Origin: Oscillospiraceae bacterium
GTDB taxonomy: Bacteria; Bacillota; Clostridia; Oscillospirales; Ruminococcaceae
Reading direction: 5' to 3'
NCBI GenBank assembly: GCA_017427265.1
Contig: JAFRTG010000001.1
Location: 1 to 55,725, forward strand
Length of the DNA stretch: 55,725 bases
The notes beneath the pieces are model-generated. The model had not been told where the DNA came from. It did not search any database and was given only the letters and a program-made list of their open reading frames with translations. Shown one piece after another: positions 3,459-17,547 of the stretch; the first letter of the stretch is position 1; each line of letters starts with the position of its first letter. Both the position numbers and the translations under genes were made by a program.

Positions 3459-3473
3459 TTCTCTCACCTCTGC

Positions 3474-3758: not shown

Positions 3759-3791
3759 AGAAAGACCTCCTTGACATAGTTCATCTGAAAT

Positions 3792-3839: not shown

Positions 3840-3869
3840 GATGTGCAATATTCAATTTTTAGGCATAAA

Positions 3870-3911: not shown

Positions 3912-3937
3912 GTCCATTATTCAGTTTTGCTTGTCAA
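3909..3937 (-). promoter_or_regulatory. Candidate sigma-A promoter of the ICE transfer operon
   Basis: On the minus strand a perfect TTGACA (3937-3932) is followed after 17 bp by GACAAT (3914-3909). A start near 3902 gives a leader of about 145 nt before the first gene, containing the terminator-like hairpin. The first TTTCTACC repeat lies 6 bp upstream of the -35 box. Confidence 0.55.
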
Positions 3938-3943
3938 CAGGCT

Positions 3944-4089
3944 TTCTACCGTTTTAAGGTTGTTTTCGGCTTCTACCAAGTTTCTACCAACTTTTTTATC
4001 GTTGGATTTCTACCAAGTTTCTACCAAAAATCTTCAAAATGCTTGAATTTTCAGAACAGCGCTGTTTCGCTGTTTTTGAGCTTTCTACC
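3944..4089. repeat. Six TTCTACC direct repeats (iterons or integrase arm sites)
   Basis: TTCTACC occurs at 3944, 3971, 3982, 4008, 4019 and 4083, mostly extended to TTTCTACCAA. Two pairs have an internal spacing of exactly 11 bp (3971/3982 and 4008/4019), and the pairs are 37 bp apart. All are in one orientation. Such arrays at the end of an ICE beside its initiator gene are typical of replication iterons or of arm-type sites for a tyrosine integrase; the sequence alone does not decide. Confidence 0.7.
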
Positions 4090-4120
4090 ATTAAAAAGCC
4101 CCATGGAATCGGATTTTTTG

Positions 4121-4160
4121 TGTGACTCAGTGTGACTCGGTGGTACTCAGTGTGAAATTG
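4121..4160. repeat. Four imperfect 10-bp tandem repeats, TGTGACTCAG type
   Basis: Consecutive decamers TGTGACTCAG, TGTGACTCGG, TGGTACTCAG and TGTGAAATTG, degrading toward the right. They lie between the TTCTACC array and the AT-rich region leading into chromosomal sequence, close to where the ICE must end. They may be part of the attachment end or another protein-binding array. Nothing else is seen from 4161 to 4280 apart from AT-rich sequence. Confidence 0.5.
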
Positions 4161-4280
4161 GTTTGCTTATATCATATTGCTGCGTATAAATCAACTGAAA
4201 CGCTCCGCTGAGATGACCGTACCTGTTCTGTATATGTCCGGAACATATATATCATAGCATAAATTGAAACCGGCGTCAAT

Positions 4281-4341
4281 GCAACTTACCCTCTGAAAAA
4301 TGCAGCTTACTGCCCTGAAATAACAGCTTGCTGAAAATATA
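4281..4341 (+). promoter_or_regulatory. Array A: three 21-bp direct repeats, LytTR-like, upstream of ncRNA promoter
   Basis: Repeat units start at 4281 (GCAACTTACCCTCTGAAAAA), 4302 (GCAGCTTACTGCCCTGAAAT) and 4323 (ACAGCTTGCTGAAAATATAT), a period of exactly 21 bp. The core TACYGNNCTGA resembles the LytTR consensus (ACNGTTNNG-type 9-mers spaced 12 bp). The last unit begins 19 bp before the -35 box. Array B at 17436-17517 has the same consensus, period and distance to its promoter. Confidence 0.75.
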
Positions 4342-4371
4342 TTGACAATCTGTACTTGATTGCTATATAAT
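4342..4371 (+). promoter_or_regulatory. Promoter of the structured ncRNA
   Basis: TTGACA (4342-4347) and TATAAT (4366-4371) match consensus but with an 18-bp spacer, one longer than most promoters in this window. A stretched spacer combined with an upstream repeat array touching the -35 box is what one expects of an activator-dependent promoter. Confidence 0.8.
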
Positions 4372-4377
4372 CATACA

Positions 4378-4567
4378 AACGGGAGACGATTCCATAGAAT
4401 CGTGCTGCAGAACGGAATGCTTGAATACGGGCTTGCATTTCGTCAATCCACGCAGCAGAGGGGAGGCGATATCCGGAAGCAGAAACCGGAATTCTTAGCG
4501 CGAAGAACAACACTCAAAACGGAGGACACCAAAAACAGCGCATCCCGGAAGGGATGCGCTGTTTGTT
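4378..4567 (+). ncRNA. Candidate structured noncoding RNA, about 190 nt
   Basis: It lies between a consensus promoter and a strong intrinsic terminator. The only sizeable frame (from the ATG at about 4419) has no stop before the terminator, so no ordinary protein fits. Visible pairings: ACGATTC/GAATCGT near the 5' end; a long stem with TGCTGC/GCAGCA outside and ACGGAATGC/GCATTTCGT inside; TCCGG/CCGGA further down. The motif GGGAGRCGATWYCC appears twice (4381 and 4461), and GGAGGACACC follows at about 4521, all purine-rich and Shine-Dalgarno-like. It matches no RNA family I know; it is clearly not 6S, SRP or a familiar riboswitch. Confidence 0.65.
4533..4567. terminator. Shared bidirectional terminator of ncRNA and cellobiose phosphorylase gene
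   Basis: Perfect 14-bp arms AAACAGCGCATCCC (4533-4546) and GGGATGCGCTGTTT (4551-4564) around a GGAA tetraloop, with T residues on both sides. It ends the plus-strand ncRNA and lies 29 bp past the stop of the converging minus-strand gene. Confidence 0.9.
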
Positions 4568-4592
4568 ATGCGGATGATTCTGAGCCGGCTTT

Positions 4593-6986
4593 TTATGCCA
4601 GTGTGATGACAATTTCGTTGACGGCTTCCAGCTGATCTGCGGGCAGGAAGTTGCCTTCGATCGTCTTGCCGTTGACGGTCATCGCCTTGACGCCGCACTG
4701 CAGATGATTCGGGTTTTTGATTTCGATGTTCAGCTTTTTGCCGCGGAACAGCTTGTGAATCCTGAGTCCGTCCCATGCAGCGGGGATCGAAGGATCAATG
4801 CGCAGGCCTTCGAGCTCTGTGCGCATACCGCAGATACCCTCCACACAGCCGACCATGACGGTTGAGGCGGTGCCGGTCAGCCAGTGTACATGCGAGCGTC
4901 CTGCAAACGGCGAGCGCTTGCTCTCCGTGAACTGTCCGTGGACATACGGCTCCATGACGCGGATCTCGGCTTTATCGTTCATCGCGGCAGGAGAGCTCTC
5001 CATGAAGTATTCAAACGCTCTGTCGCCGTGACCGAGCAGCGATTCCGCAAGAATCAGCCAGCCCTGGGACTGCGAGAAGATACCGCCGTTTTCCTTGGTA
5101 TCCGGATTGAAAATATGCATCAGTGCGCCGCTGAAATAGTGGTCGATATAAGGCGGCTCAAGCAGCTTTGCGCCGTAGGGCGTATTGAGGATGCGGTGGA
5201 CACTTTCCATCGCAGTCTCTGCCTGCTCCGGAGAAGCAAACCGCGAAATGACCGACCAGCTCTGCGGGTTCAGCCACATATTCGCTTCCGGATCCTTCTT
5301 TGCGCCGACGATCGTGCCGTCCTCGCGGATGCCGCGGATGAAGCGGTCGTCGTCCCAGCAATCGCTGAGTGCTTTGGAAAGTGCAGCCTTTGCGTCCTTC
5401 AGATATGCGAGGTATTCGGTATCCTTCTTGTACTCTGCCATTGCTTCCATTTCGCGGAATGCATAGTAGAGCTGGAAGGCTACGAAGGTCGATTCGCCCT
5501 TTGCGCCCAACCGCAGACAGTCATTCCAGTCCGCATGGAGACCTGCCGGCATATGATGTGCGCCGAGCCGTTCCATCGAGAACTGAATGGCACGCTTCAG
5601 ATGGCCGTAGACGGTATCCTCGCCGCCGTTTGCGTAGACGATTACCTCATCGAGGAACGCCTGATTGCCGCTCTCGCCGATATACTTGATGATGGTCGGG
5701 AACAGCCAGAGCGCGTCGTCTGCGCGGTAGGAGGGATGTCCGGTCTCCTTGACATATTCCGCATCGTCCGGCGTATTTTCATGACCTGCATTGTGATTGA
5801 ACTTGACGAGCGGGAGACCGCCGCCGTTGTCAACCTGTGCAGACAGCATGAAGCGGATCTTTTCGAGCGCCATTTCCGGATTCAGGTGAATGATGCCCTG
5901 AATATCCTGCACGGTATCGCGGTAGCCGTAGCCGTTGCGCTCGCCGCAGTAAATAAGCGAGGCTGCGCGGCTCCAGATCGAGGTGATGAAGCACTGATAG
6001 GCGTTCCAGACGTTAATCATGTTGTTGAACTCGTCCGAAGGCGTCTCGACCTCGAAGTGCGAGAGCTGCTCATGCCAGTAGCTGCGAAGATTTTCGATTT
6101 CCTGATCTGCGGTGCCGTCCTTTTCATAGTGCTTGAGAATCTCGGCAGCCTCCGCGGAATTCTTCATGCCGAACACATAGGTCAGCACTCTGGTTTCGCC
6201 GGGCTGCAGCACAATGTCAGACTGCAGTGCGCCGCAGGCATTGCTGTTGTAGTTCATGGTGCCGTCGCAGACGCCCTTTTCAACTGCGATCGGATTGGAA
6301 TAGGTGCGGTACGGTCCGATAAACGACGAAAGATCGCCGTTCGCGGAATTGACCGGTGCGCCGACCAGACCGAAGAAGCGTTCCAGATGGTTGGAACCGG
6401 TTTCATCTCTGCCGCTGTTCTCATTGATATGCTGAATGATACGGTTGCCGCCCTCGAAGCTCGTCCGTGAAATGAACAGTGTATACTGCAGATTGACCTG
6501 ATCCTGCTGATAATTGCTGTCGTTTGTAAACTCGATAAAACCCGTGACTGAAAGTTTGCGCGGCCGGCTGTCCGTATTGGTGATCTTGCACTGCCAGACC
6601 TCATACGCTGCCGGAACAAAGTATGTGGTTTCCGTCCGGATCCCGGAATATTCCGAAGTCAGAACCGTGTAAGCCGTTCCGTGGCGGCATTCCGACTTGT
6701 ACTGATCCAGCGGCTTTCCGACCGGCTGCCACGAGGCGGACCAGAAATCTCCGGATTCCTGATCGGTCAGGTAGATGTAGCGGCCGGGGAGCGCCATCAT
6801 CGAATTGAAGCGGAATCTGCCGATTCTGCCGTTTGCGCCGCTTTTGACAAAGCTGTAGCCTGCGGCGTTGTTCGTAATAATCGCCCCGTATTCCGGATCT
6901 CCGAGATAATTAGACCATGCAGACGGTGTATCCGGTCGTGTGATCACATATTCTTTGTTTTTGAGATCAAAATAGCCGTATTTCAT
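4593..6986 (-). CDS. cbpA: Cellobiose phosphorylase (GH94)
   Basis: 797 residues, full length for the family. It splits intracellular cellobiose with phosphate into glucose 1-phosphate and glucose, saving ATP during growth on cellulose products. The N-terminus KYGYFDLKNKEYVITRPDTP and the block NNAAGYSFVKSGANGRI are hallmarks of ruminococcal cellobiose phosphorylases. The catalytic general acid lies in HADWNDCLRLGAKGES (about residues 480-495), in the GH94 (alpha/alpha)6 barrel, and the C-terminus is the expected beta-sandwich. It is cytosolic with no signal peptide. The start has a strong AGGAGG site. It is a single-gene unit with its own promoter (7037-7065) and terminator. Cellodextrin phosphorylases are longer, so cellobiose is the likely substrate. 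Confidence 0.93.
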   Translation of the reverse strand: MKYGYFDLKNKEYVITRPDTPSAWSNYLGDPEYGAIITNNAAGYSFVKSGANGRIGRFRFNSMMALPGRYIYLTDQESGDFWSASWQPVGKPLDQYKSECRHGTAYTVLTSEYSGIRTETTYFVPAAYEVWQCKITNTDSRPRKLSVTGFIEFTNDSNYQQDQVNLQYTLFISRTSFEGGNRIIQHINENSGRDETGSNHLERFFGLVGAPVNSANGDLSSFIGPYRTYSNPIAVEKGVCDGTMNYNSNACGALQSDIVLQPGETRVLTYVFGMKNSAEAAEILKHYEKDGTADQEIENLRSYWHEQLSHFEVETPSDEFNNMINVWNAYQCFITSIWSRAASLIYCGERNGYGYRDTVQDIQGIIHLNPEMALEKIRFMLSAQVDNGGGLPLVKFNHNAGHENTPDDAEYVKETGHPSYRADDALWLFPTIIKYIGESGNQAFLDEVIVYANGGEDTVYGHLKRAIQFSMERLGAHHMPAGLHADWNDCLRLGAKGESTFVAFQLYYAFREMEAMAEYKKDTEYLAYLKDAKAALSKALSDCWDDDRFIRGIREDGTIVGAKKDPEANMWLNPQSWSVISRFASPEQAETAMESVHRILNTPYGAKLLEPPYIDHYFSGALMHIFNPDTKENGGIFSQSQGWLILAESLLGHGDRAFEYFMESSPAAMNDKAEIRVMEPYVHGQFTESKRSPFAGRSHVHWLTGTASTVMVGCVEGICGMRTELEGLRIDPSIPAAWDGLRIHKLFRGKKLNIEIKNPNHLQCGVKAMTVNGKTIEGNFLPADQLEAVNEIVITLA

Positions 6987-7036
6987 ATTTTCCTCCTATA
7001 AAGTACAGGCATCCGTCTGATTTCCCAGACATTTCC

Positions 7037-7065
7037 ATTTTAACATATATCCGGACAGATTGCAA
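7037..7065 (-). promoter_or_regulatory. Promoter of the cellobiose phosphorylase gene
   Basis: On the minus strand TTGCAA (7065-7060), 17 bp, TAAAAT (7042-7037), about 45 bp before the start codon. The 7066-7201 stretch upstream is AT-rich and carries nothing else I can identify. Confidence 0.7.
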
Positions 7066-7201
7066 GGGGGTCCGCTGTTATTTTTCACTTTGTTCATATT
7101 TAAGCATTTTGCATGTTTATTTCAGTGGCAGTTGTCTGTACAGATCGGATTTTTGCAGCAAAATATGACATTTTGTAGCTTCGGATACAGGGCTGTACGG
7201 C

Positions 7202-7555
7202 TTATTTTTCCTTTGCACGGAACACCGATGCAGCGGCCAGTCCGAACAGCATGGCCGCTGTGATTCCGCCCGCGGCAGAGGAGAGTCCGCCGGTCAGAAC
7301 GCCGAGCAGACCGTGCGCCTCGACGTCCTTCCGGATGCCCTCCGCGAGCAGATTGCCGAAGCCGCTGAGCGGCACCGAAGCACCCGCGCCCGCAAGCCGG
7401 ACCAGATGCGGATAAACGCCGAGCGCGCCGAGGATGACCCCGGCGACCACATAGCCGACGAGAATGCGCGCAGGCGTCAGCTTGGTATTGTCAATCAAAA
7501 GCTGCCCGATCACACAAAGCAGTCCGCCAATCAAAAAAGCCCACAGATACGTCAT
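7202..7555 (-). CDS. spoVAE: Stage V sporulation protein AE (SpoVAE)
   Basis: 117 residues starting at the ATG at 7555 (MTYLWAFLIGGLLCVIGQLL), with an AAGGAG site inside the end of spoVAD; the ATG overlaps the spoVAD stop by 4 bp (ATGA). Three to four membrane segments fill the protein, and the motifs TKLTPARILVGYVVAGVILG and LGVYPHLVRLAGAGASVPL are characteristic of the SpoVAE family. It forms part of the spore inner-membrane machinery that moves dipicolinic acid and Ca2+ during sporulation and germination. No spoVAC is found next to it. Confidence 0.92.
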   Translation of the reverse strand: MTYLWAFLIGGLLCVIGQLLIDNTKLTPARILVGYVVAGVILGALGVYPHLVRLAGAGASVPLSGFGNLLAEGIRKDVEAHGLLGVLTGGLSSAAGGITAAMLFGLAAASVFRAKEK

Positions 7556-8577
7556 AATTGCTGCTCCTTTCCGCACTCAGATGAGAGGTGTACCGCATGG
7601 CAGATGCCGGGGATGCTCTCGCCCTGCTGACAGAGCATCGGGGAGAGCAGCGCGCCGGTTGCGGCATAGAGAATGTTCCGGAATTCGCCGCGCCGGATGC
7701 GCGGCAGAAAGTATCCGCAGATGATTGACGCGGAGCATCCGCAGCCGGAGCCGCCCGCATGGGTATCCTGTGCGGCTCTGTCAAACATCATGACGCCGCA
7801 GTCGCGGTGCACGCTCCGCAGATCGTAGCCGTTCTGCGCGGTCAGCTGCATGAGCAGCTTGCTGCCGACATAACCGAGATCGCCCGTGATGATTGCATCA
7901 TAATCGGAAGGCCGTGTTCTGGTCGCAGAAAGATATCTTGCGATCGTATCGGCAGCGGCAGGCGCCATGGCCGCGCCCATATTGCTTGCGTCCGTGAGGC
8001 CGCAGTCGCGGATGCGTCCCGCACAGACCCCGCGGATATAGGGCGGCTCGCCGGTCGGGACGAGCAGTGCCGCCCCGGCTGCGGTACAGGTCCACTGTGC
8101 ATTCGGTGTGCGCTGTCCGCCGTAGGAGAGCGGAAACCGGAACTGCCGCTCTGCACTGGAAAAGTGCGAGGAGGTCAGCACGGCACAGCGCGGCAGCTCC
8201 ATGCCGCTCTGCATGACCGCAGCGAGCATCAGCCCCTCTGCGAAGGTTGCACAGGCGCCGAATATGCCGAGATACGGAATATCGAGATGCCGGAGCGCAT
8301 AGGTGGAGCTTGTGCACTGATTGATGAGATCCCCCGCAAAAATGCAGCTGATATCAGTTTCTTTGCAGCCGGCTTTTTCCAGCATCAGCTGCAGGGTACG
8401 GTTCTGCAGCTCACTTTCTGCCTGTTCCCATGTCTGTTTCCCGAAATGACCGTCCTGCTCGATCATGTCAAAATACTGACCCATGGGGCCGCTGCCTTCC
8501 TTTTTTCCGGCGATGCTGCTCCATGCGGCGATGCTCGGCGGCCTGCGGAGCCGGATCAGGCTTTCGTATTCTTTCAC
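7552..8577 (-). CDS. spoVAD: Stage V sporulation protein AD (SpoVAD)
   Basis: 341 residues with a thiolase-like fold; binds dipicolinic acid and is needed for its uptake into the forespore. Family blocks are clear: GPMGQYFD near 30, CIFAGDLINQCTSS, FGACATFAEGLML, SSHFSSAERQFRFP, YGGQRTPNAQWT, MGAAMAPAAADTI, ITGDLGYVGS and AGGSGCGCSASI near the C-terminus. I use the GTG at 8577 because AAAGGAG is 8 bp upstream; a GTG at 8586 would overlap that site. It is translationally coupled to spoVAE. Expression is probably forespore-specific (see the promoter-like site at 8605-8633). Confidence 0.95.
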   Translation of the reverse strand: MKEYESLIRLRRPPSIAAWSSIAGKKEGSGPMGQYFDMIEQDGHFGKQTWEQAESELQNRTLQLMLEKAGCKETDISCIFAGDLINQCTSSTYALRHLDIPYLGIFGACATFAEGLMLAAVMQSGMELPRCAVLTSSHFSSAERQFRFPLSYGGQRTPNAQWTCTAAGAALLVPTGEPPYIRGVCAGRIRDCGLTDASNMGAAMAPAAADTIARYLSATRTRPSDYDAIITGDLGYVGSKLLMQLTAQNGYDLRSVHRDCGVMMFDRAAQDTHAGGSGCGCSASIICGYFLPRIRRGEFRNILYAATGALLSPMLCQQGESIPGICHAVHLSSECGKEQQL

Positions 8578-8604
8578 GCCAACCACTCCTTTGCTGTTTG
8601 GGAT

Positions 8605-8633
8605 TATGATGCACCGGAGCGGGAAAAATATAC
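8605..8633 (-). promoter_or_regulatory. Possible sigma-F/sigma-G promoter of spoVAD-spoVAE
   Basis: On the minus strand GTATA (8633-8629) and CATCATA (8611-8605) separated by 17 bp resemble forespore sigma-factor elements (GTATA-type -35, CATNNTA -10). No sigma-A-like pair is seen here. The match is short and could be chance. Confidence 0.35.
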
Positions 8634-8638
8634 GCAGA

Positions 8639-8682
8639 AGCAGCCCGGATACGGCTGAAAAACCGCATTCGGGCTGCTTTTA
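8639..8682. terminator. Hairpin between spoVA genes and the upstream membrane-protein gene
   Basis: AGCAGCCCGGAT and the matching CATTCGGGCTGCT arm, with ATACGG/CCGCAT inside, flank CTGAAAAA; TTTTA follows on the plus strand. On the minus strand it begins at the stop codon of the gene at 8680-9423 and is followed by TTC and a late T tract, so it probably ends that gene's transcript. Confidence 0.6.
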
Positions 8683-9423
8683 TTGCTGCATTTGCTGATG
8701 CTCTGCATCCGCATGCTTCTGTTCTGCCGGGATGAACACGCCATCGGCCTGTTCGGCAGTCAGCTGCTGCGGCAGAATCGGAGCACCTGTTTCGTCTGTT
8801 GTCTGCGGGAGCTGCGGAGGCGGCATCGGAATCTCAGATTCTTTGTGCTCCGGCGGAAGCAGACCGGCCTTGCGGGCAGTCTGCCGCTGCTTCCAGCGTT
8901 CGGTCAGTGCGGTGGTTTCCGCGGCTTTTTCGCGGGCTGTTTTGTCGATGTTCGCACCGAATCCGCGCAGATAGGGAACTGCAGCTGCGGCAAATGCCCC
9001 TGCGTCCCAGATATGCGGGAACTTGTGTACCTGTCTGCCGGTGAGAATATTGAGCTCATCACCGATTGCCGCGATGTAAGTGATCTCACTGAGCGGCAGG
9101 AGCTCCGTGCTGGGCGGCCGGAACATTTTCCTGCGCGTGATTGTGATGCCCTGCGGATTTGCTGCAATGATGATGGCCGGATGCTTATTTTGGAGAAACG
9201 CGGCCAGATGCGAGAGGCCGATGAAAGCCGCGCAGGCGGACTGAAAGTGCACAAGGGGCAGCAACACATCCTTCGGATCCGCTTCGGCAGCCCATGCAAG
9301 CAGAAATATACTGACGCAGAGCAGAACCGTAAATATCGCAAAATACTTCCAGAGCAGCATGAAGCAGCCGGGATCGTCATAACGCGAATGCGCAGTCAGA
9401 TTGTTTTCAGGGATTTTGTTCAT
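8680..9423 (-). CDS. Membrane protein with two TM segments and a PH-like middle, 247 aa
   Basis: Unrecognised. Two hydrophobic helices (about residues 22-46 and 56-76) form a hairpin near the N-terminus. The segment about 80-140 (IIIAANPQGITITRRKMF, LLPLSEITYIAAIGDELNIL) has the alternating pattern of bacterial PH-like (bPH) membrane-associated domains. The rest is a helical, then proline- and glutamine-rich cytoplasmic tail. A GAGGG site precedes the ATG. It follows the PASTA pseudokinase gene but a terminator separates them, so joint transcription is doubtful. Confidence 0.7.
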   Translation of the reverse strand: MNKIPENNLTAHSRYDDPGCFMLLWKYFAIFTVLLCVSIFLLAWAAEADPKDVLLPLVHFQSACAAFIGLSHLAAFLQNKHPAIIIAANPQGITITRRKMFRPPSTELLPLSEITYIAAIGDELNILTGRQVHKFPHIWDAGAFAAAAVPYLRGFGANIDKTAREKAAETTALTERWKQRQTARKAGLLPPEHKESEIPMPPPQLPQTTDETGAPILPQQLTAEQADGVFIPAEQKHADAEHQQMQQ

Positions 9424-9445
9424 ATGGTGTCCCTCATTGAAAGCA

Positions 9446-9475
9446 AAGCCGCAGCATTCAGAATTGCTGCGGCTT
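9446..9475 (-). terminator. Terminator of the PASTA pseudokinase gene
   Basis: AAGCCGCAGC (9446-9455) and GCTGCGGCTT (9466-9475) form a 10-bp stem with a 10-nt loop; on the minus strand it is followed by TTGCTTTC. It lies 40 bp after the stop of the kinase-like gene and 23 bp before the start of the next. Confidence 0.75.
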
Positions 9476-9514
9476 GGCGTGTATCGGTTTGTAATCCGCC
9501 GGGCAGTCGGATGG

Positions 9515-12004
9515 CTATCCGAGCACCGGCTGTTCCCCGCCGCCGTTATCAGACGGATTCGGGTTGACAGGCGGATCCGGGTTCACCGGCGGATCCGGAT
9601 TCTGAACCGGCGGCTGCTGCGATACCGGCGGCTGTTGCTGCTGCGGCGGTTCCGTTGCAACCGGCGGCGCTGCAGTCTGCTGCGGCTGCTGCGGCTGACG
9701 TTCGGTCGAATTTGCCGTATCCGTCTGAACAGTCTTGGTTGTCGTAGTCTTGGTTGTGGTTGTCTTGTTCTTGTTGGGCGTTGTACGGTTCGTCGTGCCT
9801 GTGCTGCCGTTCGAGATCGTATTGTAGACCGGGTTGTAGGCATAGTACACGATGATATCGTAGTTATCGAGTGCGTCAAGCGGCGTACCGACATCCGGTT
9901 CGACCGCGCAGACATAGCCGTTGTTGAAGTTATAGTTCACGATGGCCTTGTAGATGACATTCTGCACCTTGCCGTTTTTCGAGGTCGTTGTGGTGATGGC
10001 ATTGGGCGTCTGGTTCGGCGTTGTGCCGTTGACGGGCTGCTGTCCGGTGGGCGCCATATTGTTGTTGCCGCCGCCGTCGATGGCCTTGGAAAGACCCATT
10101 TCTTCGAGCTTTTTGCAGTAGGACTGCAGACGCATATTCTTGAAGCTCGGAATCGTGATGATGGACGAGCCGAGGCTGACCTTGACCTTCATGGACGTAC
10201 CGCTGACGAAATCAGTGCCTTCCTCGAATTCCTGCCAGAAAATGTAGTCCTTGAGAACACTGTCGTTGAATTCAAATTCCGGTTCGAGCTCCAGCCAGCC
10301 GGCCATCTCGTTCCGCTTGATCTGATAGTTCTTGCCGATGAGATCGGGGACTTCAAAATCGTAGTGGATATTGGAATTTTCATTTTCAACAGAAGGACGG
10401 ACGGCAGACGAGAGCGTGCTTTCTTCCGATTCTTCCAGTGTACTATTCTTCTTTTGCATATTCAGCACCTTGACGAGTGCTGCAATGACAATGGAAATGA
10501 TGGCAATAAAGAGAATCGCAATGATGATCGGTGCGCGCATCCGCTCAAGAACGGTGACCTCTTCGGCAGCGCGTTTGGGCGCCGGACGGCGGTACTGTTC
10601 AGGACGGCGGCGGTTCTGCGGATTCTGCCGCTGCTGTGCCGCACTGCGGTTCGGGCGGCTGCCGTTTGCGGTTCTGTGGTCTGCAGCGGGACGGCGCTGA
10701 CCGTTCGGGCCGGTGCCGGCGGGACGTCTGGTGCCGGGGCGGCTGCTGCCTGAACCGGGACGGTTTCCGTTCGCGCCGGAGCGGGTTCCGCTGCCTGCGG
10801 GACGGCTGCCGTTCGGACGTCTTGCACCGCCGGATGCACCTGCGGCTGCCTTGGCTGCAGCGACGCGGGCTGCGGCATTCGGCTCACGGTGATGCTGTGC
10901 GCCGCTGTGCTGCTGCGAATGCTGCGGATGCTGCGGATGCTGTGTCTGCTGCTGACTGCCTGTGCGTTCGCGGTGCGTCTGAAAGACGGCCGTAGCTTCC
11001 TTGCTGGGGATGCCGGCAGGTGCTTCGGCTTCTTCGGTCTGATCCGGTGCTTCTTCCTCGAACAGCAGCGTAACCAGATCGGTAATCGTGCGGACACGGG
11101 CATTGCTGTCGAGCTTCAGACCCTGCATAATTCCTTCCGAAACATTCTCCGGAATCTGCGGATTCAGCTCAGCCGGCGGAACGAGAATATCATAATCCTG
11201 CCGGGAAATGGCATCGGTTGCCCGGCAGCCTGTCAGGATGCGGTAAAGCACGGCGCAGATGCCGTAAACATCCGTCCAGGTGCCCTGCTGCCGGTCAGCG
11301 TAGTACTGCTCCGGTGCTGCATAGCCGTCAAAGAGCTCGGCGTCGAGCTCGGTATCATTCGTGCGGACCGCCGAGATGCTGAAGCCCAGCAGCTTGAGCT
11401 CGCCCTTGTCGGTGACAAAGATCGTTTCCGGGCTGAGGCCTCTGTGCAGGACACCTGCATTATGGAGCAGGCTCAGGGTCGTGAAGAGCGGCGGGAAAAT
11501 TCTGCGGACAATACTCCAGCTCAGTTCTCCTGCATTTTCCTTGAGGTATTCCAGCAGGGTGCCGCCTTCGAGATATTCGCAGACAGCATAGGTGGTGTTG
11601 TTTTCCGCAAACATATCCAGAGCGGGGTTGAGGTGGCTGAGGTTGCGCAGGCGTGCAAGCGCCTTGTTCAGCTCAGTGTACTCCGCCATCAGTGCTTTAT
11701 ACTGTGCGAGATGATCGTATTTGACATTCACGGCACCGCTGTTCGGAACGCGGCTGCAGAGACGCTCCGGGAAATACTCCCGGATCAGGATTTTGCAGTC
11801 CACGGAGGTGTCATAGCCGATATAGGTGACGCCTTCTCCGTTGGCTTCCAGTACCTTTCCGACCAGAAACCGCTCACGGAGCAGCGTGCCGGGCTTGAGA
11901 TAGTTTGCCAGTGAAGTGGTATTCTGATCATATCCGCAATGCACACAAACGGTTTCACTGCCAAGCGGCTCCATACAGCCGTAGCAGAGGTTGAGATCGC
12001 TCAT
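9515..12004 (-). CDS. Membrane PASTA-domain pseudokinase with N-terminal zinc ribbon
   Basis: 829 residues. Order: zinc ribbon (CYGC at 7-10, CVHC at 20-23); Ser/Thr kinase fold (about 38-318); basic Q/R/G/P-rich linker (about 340-485); one TM helix (491-513); outside the cell one or two PASTA-like domains (about 549-635); a long T/P/Q-rich tail ending in PDPPVNPDPP repeats. The kinase is recognisable from LKPGTLLRERF, the family signature EYFPERL, APEQY and WTDVYGICAVLYRILTG, but the active site is gone: the VAIK lysine is R75 (LIREYFP), HRD is HRG (G189), the following Asn is T194, DFG is GFS (G207), and the glycine loop reads EANGEG. It should sense muropeptides or cell-wall state without phosphotransfer. 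It has its own promoter and leader hairpin. Confidence 0.9.
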   Translation of the reverse strand: MSDLNLCYGCMEPLGSETVCVHCGYDQNTTSLANYLKPGTLLRERFLVGKVLEANGEGVTYIGYDTSVDCKILIREYFPERLCSRVPNSGAVNVKYDHLAQYKALMAEYTELNKALARLRNLSHLNPALDMFAENNTTYAVCEYLEGGTLLEYLKENAGELSWSIVRRIFPPLFTTLSLLHNAGVLHRGLSPETIFVTDKGELKLLGFSISAVRTNDTELDAELFDGYAAPEQYYADRQQGTWTDVYGICAVLYRILTGCRATDAISRQDYDILVPPAELNPQIPENVSEGIMQGLKLDSNARVRTITDLVTLLFEEEAPDQTEEAEAPAGIPSKEATAVFQTHRERTGSQQQTQHPQHPQHSQQHSGAQHHREPNAAARVAAAKAAAGASGGARRPNGSRPAGSGTRSGANGNRPGSGSSRPGTRRPAGTGPNGQRRPAADHRTANGSRPNRSAAQQRQNPQNRRRPEQYRRPAPKRAAEEVTVLERMRAPIIIAILFIAIISIVIAALVKVLNMQKKNSTLEESEESTLSSAVRPSVENENSNIHYDFEVPDLIGKNYQIKRNEMAGWLELEPEFEFNDSVLKDYIFWQEFEEGTDFVSGTSMKVKVSLGSSIITIPSFKNMRLQSYCKKLEEMGLSKAIDGGGNNNMAPTGQQPVNGTTPNQTPNAITTTTSKNGKVQNVIYKAIVNYNFNNGYVCAVEPDVGTPLDALDNYDIIVYYAYNPVYNTISNGSTGTTNRTTPNKNKTTTTKTTTTKTVQTDTANSTERQPQQPQQTAAPPVATEPPQQQQPPVSQQPPVQNPDPPVNPDPPVNPNPSDNGGGEQPVLG

Positions 12005-12022
12005 TGCATGAACTCCTTCCGT

Positions 12023-12066
12023 CCCTGCGCAGCCGTCAGGCGTACCGGTGTACGCTCAGCGCAGGG
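12023..12066 (-). other. Leader hairpin abutting the pseudokinase ribosome site
   Basis: CCCTGCGC pairs with GCGCAGGG as an outer stem, and GCGTAC pairs with GTACGC as an inner stem. The structure ends 2-3 nt before the GGAAGGAG ribosome site of the gene starting at 12004. There is no T tract, so it is not a terminator; it may tune translation or mRNA stability. Confidence 0.55.
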
Positions 12067-12090
12067 GATTTTGCTGAATATCCAAATTAC

Positions 12091-12119
12091 ATTTTATCAG
12101 GAATCCGGCCTTCTGTCAA
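12091..12119 (-). promoter_or_regulatory. Promoter of the PASTA pseudokinase gene
   Basis: On the minus strand TTGACA (12119-12114), 17 bp, TAAAAT (12096-12091). It gives a leader of about 80 nt containing the hairpin at 12023-12066. This shows that the gene is transcribed separately from the membrane protein upstream at 12230-13033. Confidence 0.8.
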
Positions 12120-12229
12120 TGATTTTCTGTGTATTGCACCGAATTGCTGCCAAATTGTAGCTTTTTTGTTAGAAATTTCGTCGATGCTGACGAAAAGAAG
12201 CGCGCTGTGTCTGCATTTATATGCAGGTT

Positions 12230-13033
12230 TCAGGTCTCCGGGCTTGCGAGCAGCGTGCCGATATAATTCTTGCGGCTGTCGGAGATTGTGCTCAGCTGAC
12301 CGGATTCGTCCCAGACTGCGGTGATGACATAGGCAGCAACATCGCCGCTCTCCTTGTCCTCATAGCAGTAGCGGTATTCACGCAGCTCGGTTTTTCCCTG
12401 CAGATACTGGATTTTATAAGGAATCAGGCCGATGGCCTCTTCCACGGCATCCGTTGTCGAATTCGGCTGAATGAGGTTCGGGTCGAGATAGGACTTGCGT
12501 TCGGTGCCGAACACATTTTTCTCAAGCACCTTATAGTTATAGTATGTGACATTGCTGAGATCATCCGCGCTGGTGTTGCAGAAGATTGCCCACTGCGGCA
12601 GCTTGACGCCCTGAATGCGGCAGCTTCTGCTGCTTTCCGTAATGGCCTGATAGGAAGCAAACAGGTGATTCAGTGTCGGATAGGCAGATTCGCTGTTGAG
12701 ATTGACTTTGGCTTCCTTTTCAGCGGCCTGCAGCGAGGAACCGATCTTGCCGGCCAGCTTTTTGGCATAGCGCTGACCGTCGTTGCGGCGCTGACGGATC
12801 AACAGGAAAATGACCAGCGCGAGCACCAGAACGGCAATAATCAGGAGCAGAATCAGGAGCTTTTTCAGCCGGGAGCCGCGCTTTTCACCGGATGAACGGT
12901 TTGCCTTGCGGCGGTGTCTGGTTGTTTCCTGCTCAGTGATTTCAAAGGGGTTGTTCGGCTCTGTCTGATCTGCGAGTCCTTCATTGAAATATTCTTCCAT
13001 AGAGAGTTCGCTTGTGCGATCCTTGTCTGCCAT
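12230..13033 (-). CDS. Single-pass membrane protein, 267 aa, function unknown
   Basis: The start is placed at the ATG at 13033 (MADKDRTSELSMEEYF), since an ATG at 13042 sits on the ribosome site. Residues 1-65 are acidic then basic and cytoplasmic (RHRRKANRSSGEKRGSRLKK), followed by one strong TM helix (about 66-88, LLILLLIIAVLVLALVIFLL) and an extracellular domain of about 175 residues containing two cysteine-bearing segments (SSRSCRIQGVKLPQWAIFC). No family is recognised. It starts 26 bp after the methionine gamma-lyase-like gene and precedes the pseudokinase, so a cell-envelope role with that sensor is possible but is only inferred from position. Confidence 0.75.
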   Translation of the reverse strand: MADKDRTSELSMEEYFNEGLADQTEPNNPFEITEQETTRHRRKANRSSGEKRGSRLKKLLILLLIIAVLVLALVIFLLIRQRRNDGQRYAKKLAGKIGSSLQAAEKEAKVNLNSESAYPTLNHLFASYQAITESSRSCRIQGVKLPQWAIFCNTSADDLSNVTYYNYKVLEKNVFGTERKSYLDPNLIQPNSTTDAVEEAIGLIPYKIQYLQGKTELREYRYCYEDKESGDVAAYVITAVWDESGQLSTISDSRKNYIGTLLASPET

Positions 13034-13059
13034 TTTGAACATCCTTTCCCGTTATGTAA

Positions 13060-14328
13060 TTATGAGAATGCAATCAGCCCGCGGCTGAGCATGTTTTGTG
13101 CTGCTGTCAGGATTCCGAGCTTGCCGCTGCCGTAGGTGATGCCGCCCTGCAGATAGACTGCATAGGGCTCGCGCATCGGGCCGTCGGCAGAAAGCTCGAT
13201 CGAAGCGCCGCCGGTAAAGGTGCCCGCTGCCATAATGACCTTGCTCTCATAGCCGGGCATATCCCATGCTTCCGGCGTGACATAGGAATCAACCGGAGAA
13301 CCGGCCTGAATGCCGGCGCAGAAGGCTTCCATTGCGGCAGGGGAGCGCAGCTGCAGAACGGTGATGATATCACCGGCAGTTTTCCCCGGCTCCGGCAGAC
13401 AGGAAAAGCCGAGTCCGCGGAAGAGCTCTGCGGCAAACGCGCCGGTCTTGCGCGCATTGGCAACGACCTCCGGCGCAAAGAACAGTCCGAGATACATGGA
13501 GCGGCACTGATTGAGCGAACAGCCGACCTCTCTGCCCATGCCGACGCAGGTCAGGCGGTAGGCGCACTGCTCGACGAGCGCGGCCTTTCCGGCGATATAG
13601 CCGCCGGTTTCCGCGATGCCGCCGCCGGGATTCTTGATGAGCGAACCGATCATCAGGTCAGCGCCTGCATCGGAGGGCTCCTCGTAATCGACGAATTCGC
13701 CGTAGCAGTTATCGACCATAACAACGGCGTCCGGATTTGCTTTTCTTGTAATATCAACGATTCTGCGGATATCCGCAACCGTCAGCGCCGGGCGCAGCGA
13801 ATAGCCGCGGGAGCGCTGCAGATACACGACCCTTGCGCCTCTGACAGCGTCCGGGATTGCGTCGTAATCCGGCGTGCCGTCTGCTTTGAGGTCGCACTGA
13901 CCGTAGGTGATGCCATAATCGGCGAGGGAGCCGTTGCCCCTGCCGCGGATGCCGATGACCTCTTCAAGCGTGTCATACGGCGCGCCGGTCACGGAAACCA
14001 TTTTGTCGCCGGTGCGCAGAACGCCGAACAGCGCCGTCGAGAGCGCATGTGTGCCGGATACAAAATGATGTCTGACGAGCGCATCCTCCGTGTGGAACAC
14101 CTCTGCCCAGACCTTGTCCAGCTTGTCTCTGCCGACATCGTCATAGCCGTAGCCGTTTGCACCGGCAAAGCAGGCCGCAGAAACCTGCTGCGACTGAAAT
14201 GCACGCAGCACCTTGGCGCTGCCGTGCTGAGAGATCCGGTCGATCTCCTCGAACTGCGGTCTTGCGGCTTCCTCGGCAGCCTTTGCCGCCGCGAGCAGCC
14301 GGTCATCAAATGAAAATACAGAATTCAT
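13060..14328 (-). CDS. Methionine gamma-lyase family PLP enzyme (aluminium-resistance protein family)
   Basis: 422 residues from the ATG at 14328, which has an AAGGGGA site; a longer upstream frame lacks one. Fold-type I PLP protein of the family often annotated as aluminium resistance protein (PF06838). Visible signatures: ANGYGYDDVGRDKLDKV, HFVSGTHALSTALFG, VMVDNCYGEFVDYEEPSD with the cofactor-binding Asp, and SLIKNPGGGIAETGGYIAG with the PLP lysine in SLIKN. The physiological reaction is uncertain; the family name implies cleavage of methionine or a related sulfur compound to a keto acid, ammonia and a thiol. It lies 72 bp after the GNAT gene. Confidence 0.88.
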   Translation of the reverse strand: MNSVFSFDDRLLAAAKAAEEAARPQFEEIDRISQHGSAKVLRAFQSQQVSAACFAGANGYGYDDVGRDKLDKVWAEVFHTEDALVRHHFVSGTHALSTALFGVLRTGDKMVSVTGAPYDTLEEVIGIRGRGNGSLADYGITYGQCDLKADGTPDYDAIPDAVRGARVVYLQRSRGYSLRPALTVADIRRIVDITRKANPDAVVMVDNCYGEFVDYEEPSDAGADLMIGSLIKNPGGGIAETGGYIAGKAALVEQCAYRLTCVGMGREVGCSLNQCRSMYLGLFFAPEVVANARKTGAFAAELFRGLGFSCLPEPGKTAGDIITVLQLRSPAAMEAFCAGIQAGSPVDSYVTPEAWDMPGYESKVIMAAGTFTGGASIELSADGPMREPYAVYLQGGITYGSGKLGILTAAQNMLSRGLIAFS

Positions 14329-14382
14329 GTTTTCCCCTTGCAATCTCATGCGCGGTTCCGACGCATGTGAAATATCGAGCAA

Positions 14383-14400
14383 AAGCGCGGTTTACGCGCG
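14383..14400 (-). terminator. Weak terminator after the M42-M42-GNAT operon
   Basis: GCGCG/CGCGC stem around TAAAC followed by TTTTGC on the minus strand, starting right after the GNAT stop codon. The short stem suggests partial termination, with some read-through into the gene at 13060-14328. Confidence 0.45.
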
Positions 14401-15198
14401 TTACAGAATACCCTTTCCGCCGTCCGGTTCCGCGGCATGGAGCCGTTCCCAGACAAATTCGGATTCGATCAGCGTAAAGCCGATCTCCTCGTAAAAGCTC
14501 TTGCGGATATCGAGCGCATAGAGAATGCCGTTCTTTCCGCGTGCCTCCAGATCGTTTGCGATCCAGTGCAGAAAGTCTCTGGCATAGCCCTTGCCGCGTG
14601 CCGCGACCTTGGTTGCGACCTGCCCGATCAGCACCTGATCGCCATAATCGTAAATCGCCGTTGCCGCGGTGACATTATAATATGTATAGCACTGCCGCAG
14701 ACCGCGCCGCACCATATGCGAGGTGTCCGTCAGCCAGATATCGTGTGCAATCAGATTCGGGAAGCCCTCCTGCAGAATCTCATAGACATCGTCGAGCTTC
14801 GGGGCGCGGTTGACCTCGTCCGGATTGAACACCGGCGAAATGCCGCCCGGTTCGAGCCGGAACACGGAGCGGTGCAGCTGCTGATAGCCTTTGATCTGCA
14901 GGCCGCTGAGCAGCGACTGCGCACCCTCCACGCGGAACGGCTGATGCATTTCCACAAAGAGCGATAGCTCCGCAGCGGCCTCCGCATCCGCGGAAAAATC
15001 CGCCTGCGAGCTGATGAGCAGCGTACTGTTCTGCAGCATGAGCCATGCGGTTTTGTCGTGCGATTTCAGCCGGAAGAAGCGGCAGAAGCTGTACTTGGTG
15101 CCGTAGGCGACCATGTTGCAGAGAATCTTCCGCCCGTAATGGCAGACCGCGAGCGATTTGCGGTCAATTTCCGTCTGACGGCGCAGCTCCGTAATCAT
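14401..15198 (-). CDS. GNAT-family N-acetyltransferase, 265 aa
   Basis: The start is at the ATG at 15198, whose ATGA overlaps the stop of the M42 gene by 4 bp, with an AGGCGGA site. The C-terminal 130 residues carry the GNAT core: LIGQVATKVAARGKGYARDF is motif A (the acetyl-CoA loop, RGKGYA), followed by LHWIANDLEARG and FYEEIGFTLIESE, typical motif B. The N-terminal 130 residues form a separate region (FVEMHQPFRVEGAQSLLSGL) and may be a degenerate second GNAT domain. The substrate is unknown. Coupling to two aminopeptidases suggests peptide or amino-acid metabolism, as an inference. Confidence 0.82.
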   Translation of the reverse strand: MITELRRQTEIDRKSLAVCHYGRKILCNMVAYGTKYSFCRFFRLKSHDKTAWLMLQNSTLLISSQADFSADAEAAAELSLFVEMHQPFRVEGAQSLLSGLQIKGYQQLHRSVFRLEPGGISPVFNPDEVNRAPKLDDVYEILQEGFPNLIAHDIWLTDTSHMVRRGLRQCYTYYNVTAATAIYDYGDQVLIGQVATKVAARGKGYARDFLHWIANDLEARGKNGILYALDIRKSFYEEIGFTLIESEFVWERLHAAEPDGGKGIL

Positions 15199-16235
15199 AA
15201 TTCCGCCTCCTGAAGCGCAGAAAGAAGTGCTTCCGCGAGTCTGCTGCAAGCCTCCGCATCCGGTTTGCGGATGACAGAGAGCGGCGCGTGCAGATACCGG
15301 CAGGGCACGCTGACAGCGAGCACCCGGACGCCGGATCCGGCGTTCTGGATTGCACCGGCGTCGTTTCCGCCTGCAATTTTCGTTTTGGTCTGCCACGGAA
15401 TGCCGTTTGCATCGCAGATGCGGGCAGCCAGATCATAGAGCGCCTTGTCGTAGATAGTTCTGCCGTCGATAAATGAGATGACCGCACCCTTTCCGAGTTC
15501 GCAGACGCGGTCGGCGCCCTCGGAGCCGGGCAGATCGGCGGCCGTTGTCGCCTCAAAGATCACAGCAATCTCCGGCTGAATGCTCTGCGCCGCGACACCC
15601 GCGCCGCGCAGTCCGACCTCCTCCTGCACGAGAAATGCAAAATCAGTATCATAGGGAAGCTCTTTTTCGAGCAGTTCCAGCAGGATTTCGCAGCCGAAGC
15701 GGTCGTCAATCGCCTTGGACGCGAGCGAGCCGTCTCCGAGATCGTGCGGTTCGCCGCAGAAATAGATGATATCGCCCGGCCGGATATGCTGCATGGTCTC
15801 CTCAGCGGAGTCTGTGCCGATATCGCAGAACAGGCTGCTCATTTCAGCCGGCTTTTTGCGGGCGTCCTTGCTGAGCAGATGGACCGGCTTGCAGCCGATC
15901 ACACCGTTGATCTGACCCGGACCGACAGTGACCTGCCGTCCGATGACCGCAGCGGCACTGATGCCGCCGACCGCATCAAAGCCGAGCGAGCCGTCCGGGT
16001 TGATATAGGTGACCATCAGCGCGACCTCGTCCATGTGCGCCGTAAAGAGCACCTTACGCTGCGGGGCAGCCGCACCTTTTTTGTGTACAAGAATATTGCC
16101 GAGGCGATCTGTGCGGACAGCGCCCTCCGGCAGCTGCAGCTTTGCAAGTTCTTTGGGAATCGCGCTGCGGACTGCATGTTCCCTGCCGGAAGTGCCGCAG
16201 AGACCGCAGAGCTGATAGAGTCTGTTTTCGTTCAT
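15195..16235 (-). CDS. M42-family metallo-aminopeptidase (second of pair)
   Basis: 346 residues. Cytosolic peptidase of the glutamyl aminopeptidase/endoglucanase M type that forms large tetrahedral particles and trims short peptides. Metal ligands and catalytic residues: AHMDEV (His, Asp) at about 67-72, SKAIDDRFG (bridging Asp), VQEEVGLRGAG (catalytic Glu pair), IFEATTAADLPG, and the late His in RYLHAPLSVI. Its start overlaps the upstream paralogue's stop by 4 bp and its end overlaps the GNAT start by 4 bp, so three genes form a tight operon. A tandem paralogue pair with divergent specificity, or a mixed complex, is likely. Confidence 0.93.
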   Translation of the reverse strand: MNENRLYQLCGLCGTSGREHAVRSAIPKELAKLQLPEGAVRTDRLGNILVHKKGAAAPQRKVLFTAHMDEVALMVTYINPDGSLGFDAVGGISAAAVIGRQVTVGPGQINGVIGCKPVHLLSKDARKKPAEMSSLFCDIGTDSAEETMQHIRPGDIIYFCGEPHDLGDGSLASKAIDDRFGCEILLELLEKELPYDTDFAFLVQEEVGLRGAGVAAQSIQPEIAVIFEATTAADLPGSEGADRVCELGKGAVISFIDGRTIYDKALYDLAARICDANGIPWQTKTKIAGGNDAGAIQNAGSGVRVLAVSVPCRYLHAPLSVIRKPDAEACSRLAEALLSALQEAEL

Positions 16236-17257
16236 GCTCTGCCGAACCTCCCTGCAAATGCCGCGAGCAGCGCGGCAGTCTGTTCCACATCGGAAATGTC
16301 AATGACCTCGACCGGCGTATGCATATACCGCAGCGGAACCGAAACGGTCGCAGCGGCACAGCCGCCGGGTGCCAGTGCCAGAGAATCGGCATCGGTGCCG
16401 GTCGTGCCGGGCATGATTTCCAGCTGATACGGAATATTCTGATCCTTTGCAGTCGATTCCAGTTCTGCGGAGATTGCCGGTGACAGTACAGATGAAATGC
16501 CGATTGCCGGGCCTTTTCCGAGCTCGCAGCATTCATGCGGATCCTCGCCGTGCGCCATGCCGAAGGTGACGTCCACTGCGATGGCGCAGTCCGGATGCTC
16601 CCGGAAGGCTGCCTGCTTTGCCCCGCGTCCGCTGCGCTCCTCCTGACCGCTGAGGACAACGGTCACATTGCAGGGGAGGTTTTCTGTTTTGCTGATCTGT
16701 TCGGCGGCCATGATGACGGCAGCGACGCAGCAGCGGTCGTCCAGCGCAGAGCCGGTCATTTTGTTGTTGAGCAGCGGCTTGCAGGATGTACCGTAATATA
16801 CGGCATCGCCGCGCGAAATTTTATCCTTGAGTGCTTCTGCCGAGGAAACGCCGAGATCGACGCAGAGCTGTGCGTCATCAGGCACAGCCTGCTCACCCTG
16901 CAGCAGATGCGGCGGCAGAATCGAGATCACGCCTGCCATACGCACGCTGCCCTCGGCAATTACCGGCTGACCGAGCAGCAGACGCCGGTCGATGCCGCCG
17001 ACAGCGCCGATGCGCAGAAAGCCGTCCTCCGTGATATCCGTGACCAGAAACCCGACCTGATCGAGATGTGCGCAGAGCAGCAGTGTCGGCTTGCCGGCAT
17101 CCTGCCCGATATGTGCGGTGACGGAGCCATCGCGGTATTCTGCATCCGGTGCAAACGGGCGCAGAAAATCAGCAGCAGCCTGTCCGACCGCAGATTCCCT
17201 GCCGGAAACACCGCGCAAATCAGCAAGCGCTGCGATCATATTGTATGAAGAATCCAA
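16232..17257 (-). CDS. M42-family metallo-aminopeptidase (first of pair)
   Basis: 341 residues, first gene of the operon. Same family as its neighbour: CAHLDQVGFLV (metal His and Asp) at about 62, LNNKMTGSALDDRCCVA (bridging Asp in ALDDR), VVLSGQEERSGRGAKQA (catalytic Glu pair in GQEE), VDVTFGMAHGEDP, GTTGTDADSLALA, and RYMHTPVEVIDI with the last metal His. All ligands look intact. Overall identity to the second copy is moderate, so the duplication is old. It is transcribed from the promoter at 17310-17338. Confidence 0.93.
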   Translation of the reverse strand: MDSSYNMIAALADLRGVSGRESAVGQAAADFLRPFAPDAEYRDGSVTAHIGQDAGKPTLLLCAHLDQVGFLVTDITEDGFLRIGAVGGIDRRLLLGQPVIAEGSVRMAGVISILPPHLLQGEQAVPDDAQLCVDLGVSSAEALKDKISRGDAVYYGTSCKPLLNNKMTGSALDDRCCVAAVIMAAEQISKTENLPCNVTVVLSGQEERSGRGAKQAAFREHPDCAIAVDVTFGMAHGEDPHECCELGKGPAIGISSVLSPAISAELESTAKDQNIPYQLEIMPGTTGTDADSLALAPGGCAAATVSVPLRYMHTPVEVIDISDVEQTAALLAAFAGRFGRA

Positions 17258-17309
17258 GGCGGAATCCTCCTTTTTGGTATGTTGGAATTGAAAGACTTAT
17301 ACAGATTAT

Positions 17310-17338
17310 ATTATACCAGAATCACACGGAAAATGCAA
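17310..17338 (-). promoter_or_regulatory. Promoter of the M42-M42-GNAT operon
   Basis: On the minus strand TTGCAT (17338-17333), 17 bp, TATAAT (17315-17310), about 50 bp before the first start codon. No operator-like repeat is seen beside it. Confidence 0.8.
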
Positions 17339-17435
17339 GATACCCGTCCGGTTTTGTCGATTGCGACAAATCGCAGCAAGGGAAAATCCGCCCGCTTGAC
17401 ATTTCAGACAGAAACCGTAAAAACGGTGAAACCAT

Positions 17436-17517
17436 GCACTTTACCCGCTGAAAAATACAGCTTACTGTCCTGATTGCGCAACTTACCGTTCTGAAAATAC
17501 ATCTTACCGAAATCCTG
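17436..17517 (+). promoter_or_regulatory. Array B: four 21-bp direct repeats, LytTR-like, upstream of the LRR-peptidase gene
   Basis: Units start at 17436 (GCACTTTACCCGCTGAAAAA), 17457 (ACAGCTTACTGTCCTGATTG), 17478 (GCAACTTACCGTTCTGAAAA) and 17499 (ACATCTTACCGAAATCCTGT), a strict 21-bp period. The third unit contains TACCGTTCTG, a very good fit to the LytTR consensus. The last unit starts 19 bp before the -35 box, identical to array A at 4281-4341. The rest of 17258-17435 holds only the divergent promoter. Confidence 0.8.
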
Positions 17518-17547
17518 TTGACTTTCGCCGCAAGATCATTGTATAAT
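17518..17547 (+). promoter_or_regulatory. Promoter of the LRR-peptidase gene
   Basis: TTGACT (17518-17523) and TATAAT (17542-17547) with an 18-bp spacer, the same non-optimal spacing as the ncRNA promoter at 4342-4371. It leaves a leader of about 75 nt before the ATG at 17628, where AAGGAAAG is the ribosome site. Confidence 0.8.

Follow-up and report, generated by a model that had tools for sequence, protein, structure and literature searches.

Two tandem arrays of 21-bp units, A and B, were characterized in a 55,725-nt stretch of an Oscillospiraceae genome (GCA_017427265.1, contig JAFRTG010000001.1; hereafter the window). The window is contig C8 of an assembly of 3.82 Mb in 49 contigs (own genome, G000). 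The arrays are very probably operators of a LytTR regulatory system (LRS) composed of a LytTR protein without a receiver domain, a DUF3021 membrane protein presumed to be its inhibitor and a hydrolase of the metallo-β-lactamase (MBL) fold. The repeats, their geometry, their co-occurrence and synteny with the operon, and an insertion that separated array A from it can be read from the sequence; from these we infer binding by LytTR, inhibition by DUF3021 and the direction of regulation.

The 21-bp arrays and their significance

4281..4343, plus strand: array A, three 21-bp units at 4281, 4302 and 4323, each a 9-bp LytTR-type repeat (RCANCTTAC) followed by 12 bp
17436..17519, plus strand: array B, four 21-bp units at 17436, 17457, 17478 and 17499

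A preliminary description of the window had reported these unit positions, a period of exactly 21 bp, a distance of 19 bp from the start of the last unit to the -35 box in both arrays, and 18-bp promoter spacers. All of these values were exact when re-checked. The description had also held that the pattern occurs nowhere else in the window; the exact two-unit pattern indeed gave three matches, all within A and B, and none in 200 Markov resamples. The genome scan that it proposed yielded 17 two-unit matches, as compared with none for a reversed-pattern control, and 11 arrays including A and B (C7:140470, C8:4282, C8:17437, C25:23260, C25:191392, C25:200376, C25:327810, C30:178918, C31:100632, C34:4200 and C48:68094, where one unit is exact and two carry mismatches). 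The signal is carried by the tandem 21-bp arrangement. The loose 17-mer alone, with three mismatches allowed, was weakly above chance in the window (five matches, 2.09 expected) and was dropped as evidence, as 5 of 100 shuffles reached the same count.

A logo of 76 internal units from the own and related genomes gave RCANCTTACC, then a middle of low conservation and a tail rich in A, so that the core LytTR element is GCAACTTAC-12 bp-GCAACTTAC. A LytTR-type repeat had been proposed before, and the repeat is real; TACCGTTCTG in the third unit of array B, which had been described as close to the LytTR consensus, is out of register because the conserved element is RCANCTTACC. With one mismatch per unit allowed, 44 arrays had two (7 arrays), three (30) or four units (7). 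More than two sites per array had been called unusual, which agrees with the pairs in Tables 2 and 3 of PMC6193735; most arrays here have three or four.

Such a pattern could in principle arise with no dedicated protein behind it, from phased A-tracts or by chance, or it could be a mobile repeat. The A-rich unit tails fit this, as does a longer duplicated cassette common to three own promoters (C25:327, C30 and C34). Nevertheless, the 9-mer is nearly invariant while the tails vary, T-runs and mixed tails included, and the reversed-pattern controls numbered zero. Together with the distribution among genomes described below, this makes an explanation of that kind hardly credible.

Two promoter designs adjoin the arrays

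4342..4371, plus strand: F-type promoter of array A, TTGACA (4342-4347), 18 bp, TATAAT (4366-4371), 10 bp past the last repeat
4251..4279, minus strand: R-type promoter of array A, TTGACG (4279-4274), 17 bp, TATGAT (4256-4251), with TG ahead of the -10 box
17518..17547, plus strand: F-type promoter of array B, TTGACT (17518-17523), 18 bp, TATAAT (17542-17547), 10 bp past the last repeat

The last repeat before the F promoter of array A is CAGCTTGC, with one mismatch and otherwise full spacing. The minus-strand R promoter of this array had been overlooked; it now reads into a mobile element.

Arrays were collected from 61 genomes (the own genome and 60 relatives; 30 of the genus, 31 others), the genus being taken as Ruminococcus because R. 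flavefaciens genomes share both arrays and operon, and from a scan of named genomes, in which the matches listed included Ruminococcus flavefaciens 007c, Y1 and UBA3730 and several Ruminococcus or Oscillospiraceae metagenome-assembled genomes. The scan gave at least 115 stretches in at least 80 loci. Thirteen loci were taken as arrays of the group and the other 67 served as control. The 13 were 11 loci labelled R. flavefaciens, Ruminococcus sp. or Oscillospiraceae, whose promoters were read, together with L084 and L127; the last, labelled Bacillota only, was accepted once its promoters and operon were seen.

In the Ruminococcus group, an F or R promoter element lies beside each of the 43 distinct arrays that have two exact units. 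A pattern requiring a -35 box only on the F side fits 42 of them, and the 43rd, C25:191392 (TTGACA-17-TACAAT), was counted as R. None of 243 three-unit matches in the 67 control loci adjoins either promoter, and 38 of these matches sit in long frames.

The F design is repeat-10 bp-TTGAC-18-TATAAT: the gap is 10 bp in 26/29 promoters and 11 bp in 3/29, the spacer 18 bp in 22/29 and the -10 box TATAAT in 28/29. In the R design the repeat is reversed and lies 1 bp from the -35 box, which is TTGACA in 19/21; the gap measured from GTAAG is 5 in 20/21, the spacer 17 or 18 bp, and the -10 box TATCAT or TATGAT in 18/21. TGn precedes the -10 box in 0/29 F and 21/21 R promoters, sets that did not overlap in this feature; TG was no part of promoter selection. 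Both counts include orthologous promoters and their events are thus not independent. Spacer length does not divide the classes (18 bp in 22/29 F versus 13/21 R, p 0.36). The counts leave out L084, a locus that contains the -35 box and ends before the -10 box, and the displaced R side of L257. Six arrays are bidirectional, one array serving an F and an R side (L256:4316-4399 is a bidirectional case). New here are the use of mostly three or four sites instead of two and the two predicted promoter grammars read from one array.

A receiver-less LytTR operon accompanies the arrays

C16:8674-10403: own regulator operon, MBL-fold hydrolase–LytTR–DUF3021
C16:9508-9957: LytTR regulator, 149 aa (Pfam LytTR 5e-29, the sole Pfam hit)

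The regulator profile matched 3d6w (7e-10) and AgrA (0.003) among solved structures, and the Pfam scan of C16:9508-9957 found LytTR alone, with no receiver domain. The DUF3021 membrane protein (1.6e-9) is encoded directly downstream, its start overlapping the LytTR stop. In Clostridium perfringens, VirR serves a two-component system as its response regulator. A LytTR response regulator resembling it had been predicted for the arrays; the LytTR gene was found and the VirR-like receiver domain was not. A VirR-type response regulator was consequently ruled out, LytTR being the only Pfam hit in 149 aa. The likeness to VirR is confined to the LytTR domain, since here there is no receiver domain and no supported regulatory RNA (see below).

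Among the 30 genus genomes, a LytTR at least 80% identical to the own orthologue was found in nine and exact pairs in ten. Array and orthologue occurred together in eight genomes, the array only in two (G006, 81% complete, and G016, 76% complete), the orthologue only in one (G011, with a degenerate array) and neither in 19 (Fisher p 6e-5); this is the table to use, reassignment of G006 and G011 (10/1/0/19) having been made post hoc. When only genomes with a completeness of 90% or more and a contamination of 5% or less were counted (13 genomes), five had both and eight neither (p 8e-4). The 31 other genomes contained two exact pairs, in one genome each, which look like chance because neither has a predicted F or R promoter beside it. 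That genus genomes lacking the orthologue are array-free, save two incomplete ones, also argues against a mobile repeat or chance repeats.

Other LytTR genes were considered as readers of the arrays (in the own genome, Peripla_BP-LytTR on C18 and a gene on C10) and rejected: ten of the 30 genus genomes have other LytTR proteins without this orthologue, and eight of the ten are array-free. The C18 gene (L218:6955-15837; G000:C18:38954-47836) encodes a 574-aa protein in which LytTR is joined to a Peripla_BP_3 sugar-binding domain; behind it come five small proteins that resemble one another and begin like signal peptides. The CANCTTAC unit was not found in this stretch.

Synteny points to the same operon. 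In all eight relatives that carry the orthologue an array lies upstream of the operon, the LytTR-then-DUF3021 order is kept and DUF3021 scores above cut-off; an R promoter can be recognized in place in seven, and in G001 and G025 about 1.5 kb separates array and hydrolase gene. In R. flavefaciens UBA3730 (L078) and in L127 the array precedes an MBL-fold hydrolase, a LytTR (149 aa) and a DUF3021-like gene. Two loci end before the LytTR position: L094, with two lipoprotein-like genes and the hydrolase behind the array, and G006 (L185), with the array ahead of the hydrolase gene, which the contig or locus end truncates.

Outside the genus, in a sample of 294 other genomes of the order, the nearest homologues were at most 47% identical (26 at E 1e-20). 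Nine of these 26 loci were read (LytTR 40–47% identical). Six of the nine (40–42% identical) all come from one genus, g48. Upstream of the LytTR gene, which is followed by a frame of similar size, they carry GCAACTTA[CT]-12-GCAACTTAC 11 bp short of TTGACG. Within this LytTR branch, then, the 9-mer has survived a large divergence at least once. A further locus, L313, has a three-unit 21-bp array at 2412-2470 (ACAGCTTAT, ACAGCTTAC, GCAGCTTGC), with a LytTR gene pair on one side and an ABC transporter-like gene on the other.

Sites of AraC-family proteins are also direct repeats about 21 bp apart by the -35 box, and an AraC/XylS-type activator could therefore be imagined to read the arrays. It is very improbable that one does, although no search aimed at that family was made and most frames beside the arrays were not scanned for it: the arrays occur with the LytTR operon and next to it, and the same 9-mer recurs at distant homologues of the operon. 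The proposal that the arrays mark a shared regulon gains from these results: the own genome has 11 arrays, and arrays in the group adjoin promoters and track one LytTR orthologue.

Several observations weigh against assigning the arrays to this operon. The array of G016 comes without an orthologue in a genome 76% complete; an insertion has moved the R promoter of G017 out of place; the array seen in 007c (L090) sits just behind the operon genes; and the operon of the own genome now has no neighbouring array. Outside the genus, L314 and L318 have no convincing repeats before the operon, and the repeats of L313 (47%) lie behind it. The shared ancestry of the promoters counted above, the possible strength of R promoters by themselves and the R-side position of the operon (both taken up below) are to be set on the same side.

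Array A was separated from the operon by an insertion

1..4178, minus strand: end of a mobile element, probably integrative conjugative, with VirD4/type IV secretion system, DUF3801 and DUF6017 genes (only 3850-4178 compared)
4166..4194, minus strand: left half of the operon's second promoter, P2 (TTGATT, 17 bp, now TATAAG; -10 box cut by the element)

Comparison of the flanks identifies array A as the operator of the regulator operon itself, from which an element inserted in P2 has separated it. Positions 3850-4178 match G029, G002, G024 and G022 at 91–99% and G014 at 78%, and the matches end at 4168-4178. On contig C16 an integrase gene (7034-8431) stands just before the regulator operon, and the conserved element end there stops at about 8635-8642 in G023, G024 and G029. 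Both junctions have a 10-bp core in common, TATGATATAA at 4176-4167, which overlaps the -10 box of P2. When the flanks were joined in silico, the leader aligned along its length with G009, G022, G028 and G011, and P2 was restored as TTGATT-17-TATAAT, as in L256; the leader of G003, also aligned, has no visible P2. In its present state the promoter is split into TTGATT-17-TATAAG on the array side and TAGACA-17-TATAAT (C16:8608) on the operon side, the latter with a -35 box that the element supplies. Since joining the flanks restores leader and P2, array A is the severed operator, and C8 and C16 were formerly neighbours. The insertion is probably a single, conjugative element, which contigs C8 and C16 do not close. 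Its end contains iteron-like repeats at 3971-4155 of the window (TTGGTAGAAA on the minus strand, GTGTGACTCA on the plus strand), near a DUF6017/HTH_36 gene.

Genes next to the arrays

17628..19517, plus strand: BspA-type LRR_5 protein of 629 aa (LRR_5 2.7e-42), behind array B and a predicted regulon member

The gene behind array B had been described as a secreted peptidase-like protein. A simple hydrophobicity rule found a signal-peptide-like N-terminus, in keeping with export. The peptidase assignment was not supported; the protein is of the BspA leucine-rich repeat (LRR) type. Its C-terminal domain (260 residues) has a Cys/His pattern, and no match among solved structures was found by a Protein Data Bank (PDB) profile search; its structural model, with a mean pLDDT (predicted local distance difference test) of 36, had no confident fold and was not used. 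The domain has GICSGMA in common with two of three aligned relatives, and the remaining one lacks both the Cys of GICSGMA and a later Gly-His motif, a joint loss compatible with an enzyme of which this is a dead copy. L214:6765-10716 (G000:C31) contains two neighbouring LRR_5 paralogues of the protein, with an array before one only, the one without the Cys and the Gly-His motif of the C-terminal domain.

LRR_5 was found in 17 of 25 F genes scanned (4/5 in the own genome, the fifth a decayed fragment, and 13/20 in relatives). In this count the L212 fragment is non-LRR, L179, L216, L253 and L084 are left out, and the F side of array A is without a gene. Several other F-side proteins have Transglut_core. 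The non-LRR F genes include a dockerin protein, a GH9 cellulase (R. flavefaciens Y1), a heparinase-like protein and small membrane proteins. Among the nine R genes besides the hydrolase, LRR_5 was found in none (Fisher p 9e-4). These comprise four dockerin proteins, one with an M4 peptidase domain and one with a galactose-binding-like domain, a GDSL esterase, a dCache protein and three with no family assigned; two of these three are the lipoprotein-like genes ahead of the hydrolase in G001 and L094. By the same rule, which does not separate signal peptides from membrane anchors, 25/26 F genes and 9/9 R genes besides the hydrolase encode exported or anchored proteins, as compared with 0/8 hydrolases.

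Two array targets in the own genome look decayed. In L212:7168-7860 (G000:C25) the leader is fused to a mid-gene fragment, and in L216:8095-8490 (G000:C48) the frame is stopped after 55 codons.

The predicted transcript behind array A

4372..4592, plus strand: predicted short transcript of the array A F promoter, the noncoding RNA of the preliminary description

No gene was seen between this promoter and the convergent GH94 gene. A short transcript may exist, with no mark of a functional RNA found in its sequence, and the earlier noncoding RNA assignment was not upheld. No Rfam family reached gathering score for 4372-4592; an Atu_C9 match was rejected because it lay below that score and covered the terminal hairpin plus adjoining sequence, read on the opposite strand. 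In 60 relatives, with at most eight candidates scored per genome, only short patches and the terminal hairpin recur. The transcript body without the hairpin gave a fold z of -1.4, with 16 of 200 shuffles as good, so that the z of -4.2 for the full transcript comes largely from the hairpin. The hairpin itself (window 4530-4569) is strong, has a five-T run on the minus strand and lies at the end of the convergent GH94 gene, of which it is a possible terminator; a terminator scan flagged neither strand. Similar hairpins occur in both orientations in several genus genomes, perhaps as a repeated element.

Relation to known systems

As described in the available text of PMC6193735 (Zou et al. 2018), an LRS is a receiver-less LytTR with a membrane inhibitor. 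Its 9-bp direct repeats are spaced by 11–13 bp, mostly 12 bp, and end 4–11 bp, mostly 10 bp, before the target -35 box; lmo0984, for example, has GCATCTTAG-12-GCATGTTAC-10 bp. More than 4600 putative LRS operons are listed there, and only those of Streptococcus mutans are given as characterized. The present system resembles the LRS presented in that text (S. mutans HdrRM, BrsRM and SMU_1070c/1069c; Listeria lmo0984/lmo0985) in three respects: a receiver-less LytTR has a small membrane protein encoded behind it (in some of them DUF3021), 9-bp repeats mostly 12 bp apart lie 10 bp before the -35 box at F promoters, and the 9-mers are nearly identical (GCATCTTAG and GCAACTTAG there, GCAACTTAC here). 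It differs from what is described there in having mostly three or four repeats, regulon-wide use and bidirectional arrays, and in an operon that is led by the MBL-fold gene and whose own promoter has reversed repeats 1 bp from the -35 box and a TGn -10 box. The forward geometry of LRS autoregulation was absent from the operon's own promoter in the genus and present, with 11 bp, in six of the nine outside loci (one genus). As the operon's own promoter is on the R side, we regard the arrays as a variant of the LRS, not a standard member.

AgrA and the agr P2-P3 region of Staphylococcus aureus, as covered by the available text of PMC4227749, are similar in the LytTR domain (FFRCHNS there, FVRCSKS here), in the divergent promoters and in the 18-bp spacer at P2, the spacers of the AgrA-activated P2 and P3 being 18 and 20 bp. 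AgrA differs in being the response regulator of the kinase AgrC and in having separate repeats at P2 and P3, whereas here one array serves both directions. Titles and abstract openings in the literature on LytTR and R. flavefaciens regulation, a coverage with subscription papers mostly outside it, described no such arrays.

A proposed mode of action

In the reading we prefer, DUF3021 would hold LytTR inactive until some signal frees it. Freed LytTR would then fill an array with one molecule per 21 bp, so that two to four LytTR would line up along the same side of the helix, two turns apart. It would most likely activate F promoters, including that of the BspA-LRR gene at 17628, as their geometry matches published LRS-activated promoters. 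At R promoters, which include that of the regulator's own operon and those of dockerin and other exported-protein genes, control would depend on contact and would probably be activation; contact is favoured by the constancy of the gap, which extends to unrelated R promoters. Positive feedback of the regulator operon is not something that can be carried over from the LRS by analogy, because in eight relatives the operon appears on the R side, unlike the published LRS autoregulation geometry. Furthermore, R promoters, with a consensus -35 box and TGn, could be strong without an activator, although their -10 hexamer is off consensus.

LytTR proteins mostly activate. One LytTR might nonetheless activate F promoters and repress R promoters, switching surface LRR genes on and its own operon and dockerin genes off according to orientation. 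The near-consensus -35 box, the TGn in 21/21 and the repeat 1 bp from the -35 box, where a bound protein could block sigma, are all compatible with this, as is the difference in kind between F and R targets (LRR_5 in 17/25 versus 0/9). There is also a precedent in AgrA, which activates P2 and P3 yet can repress bsaA via a site just downstream of the bsaA promoter (available text of PMC4227749). However, the fixed gap in 20/21 R promoters, unrelated genes included, suggests polymerase contact rather than simple occlusion and, together with the general tendency of LytTR proteins to activate, leaves repression at R promoters a possible but rather unlikely arrangement. If it were true, the positive feedback of the LRS would have become negative feedback in this Ruminococcus group, and the element would then have severed the loop in this genome.

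The Ruminococcus group is known for fibre breakdown. Because the operators are long and rigid, the targets of the putative regulon can be read from the genome; they include LRR proteins, dockerin proteins and a GH9 cellulase (R. flavefaciens Y1), a set that can be put to the test. Two non-overlapping promoter grammars (TGn in 0/29 versus 21/21) on one operator would also provide a clean test of how the orientation of LytTR determines the outcome.

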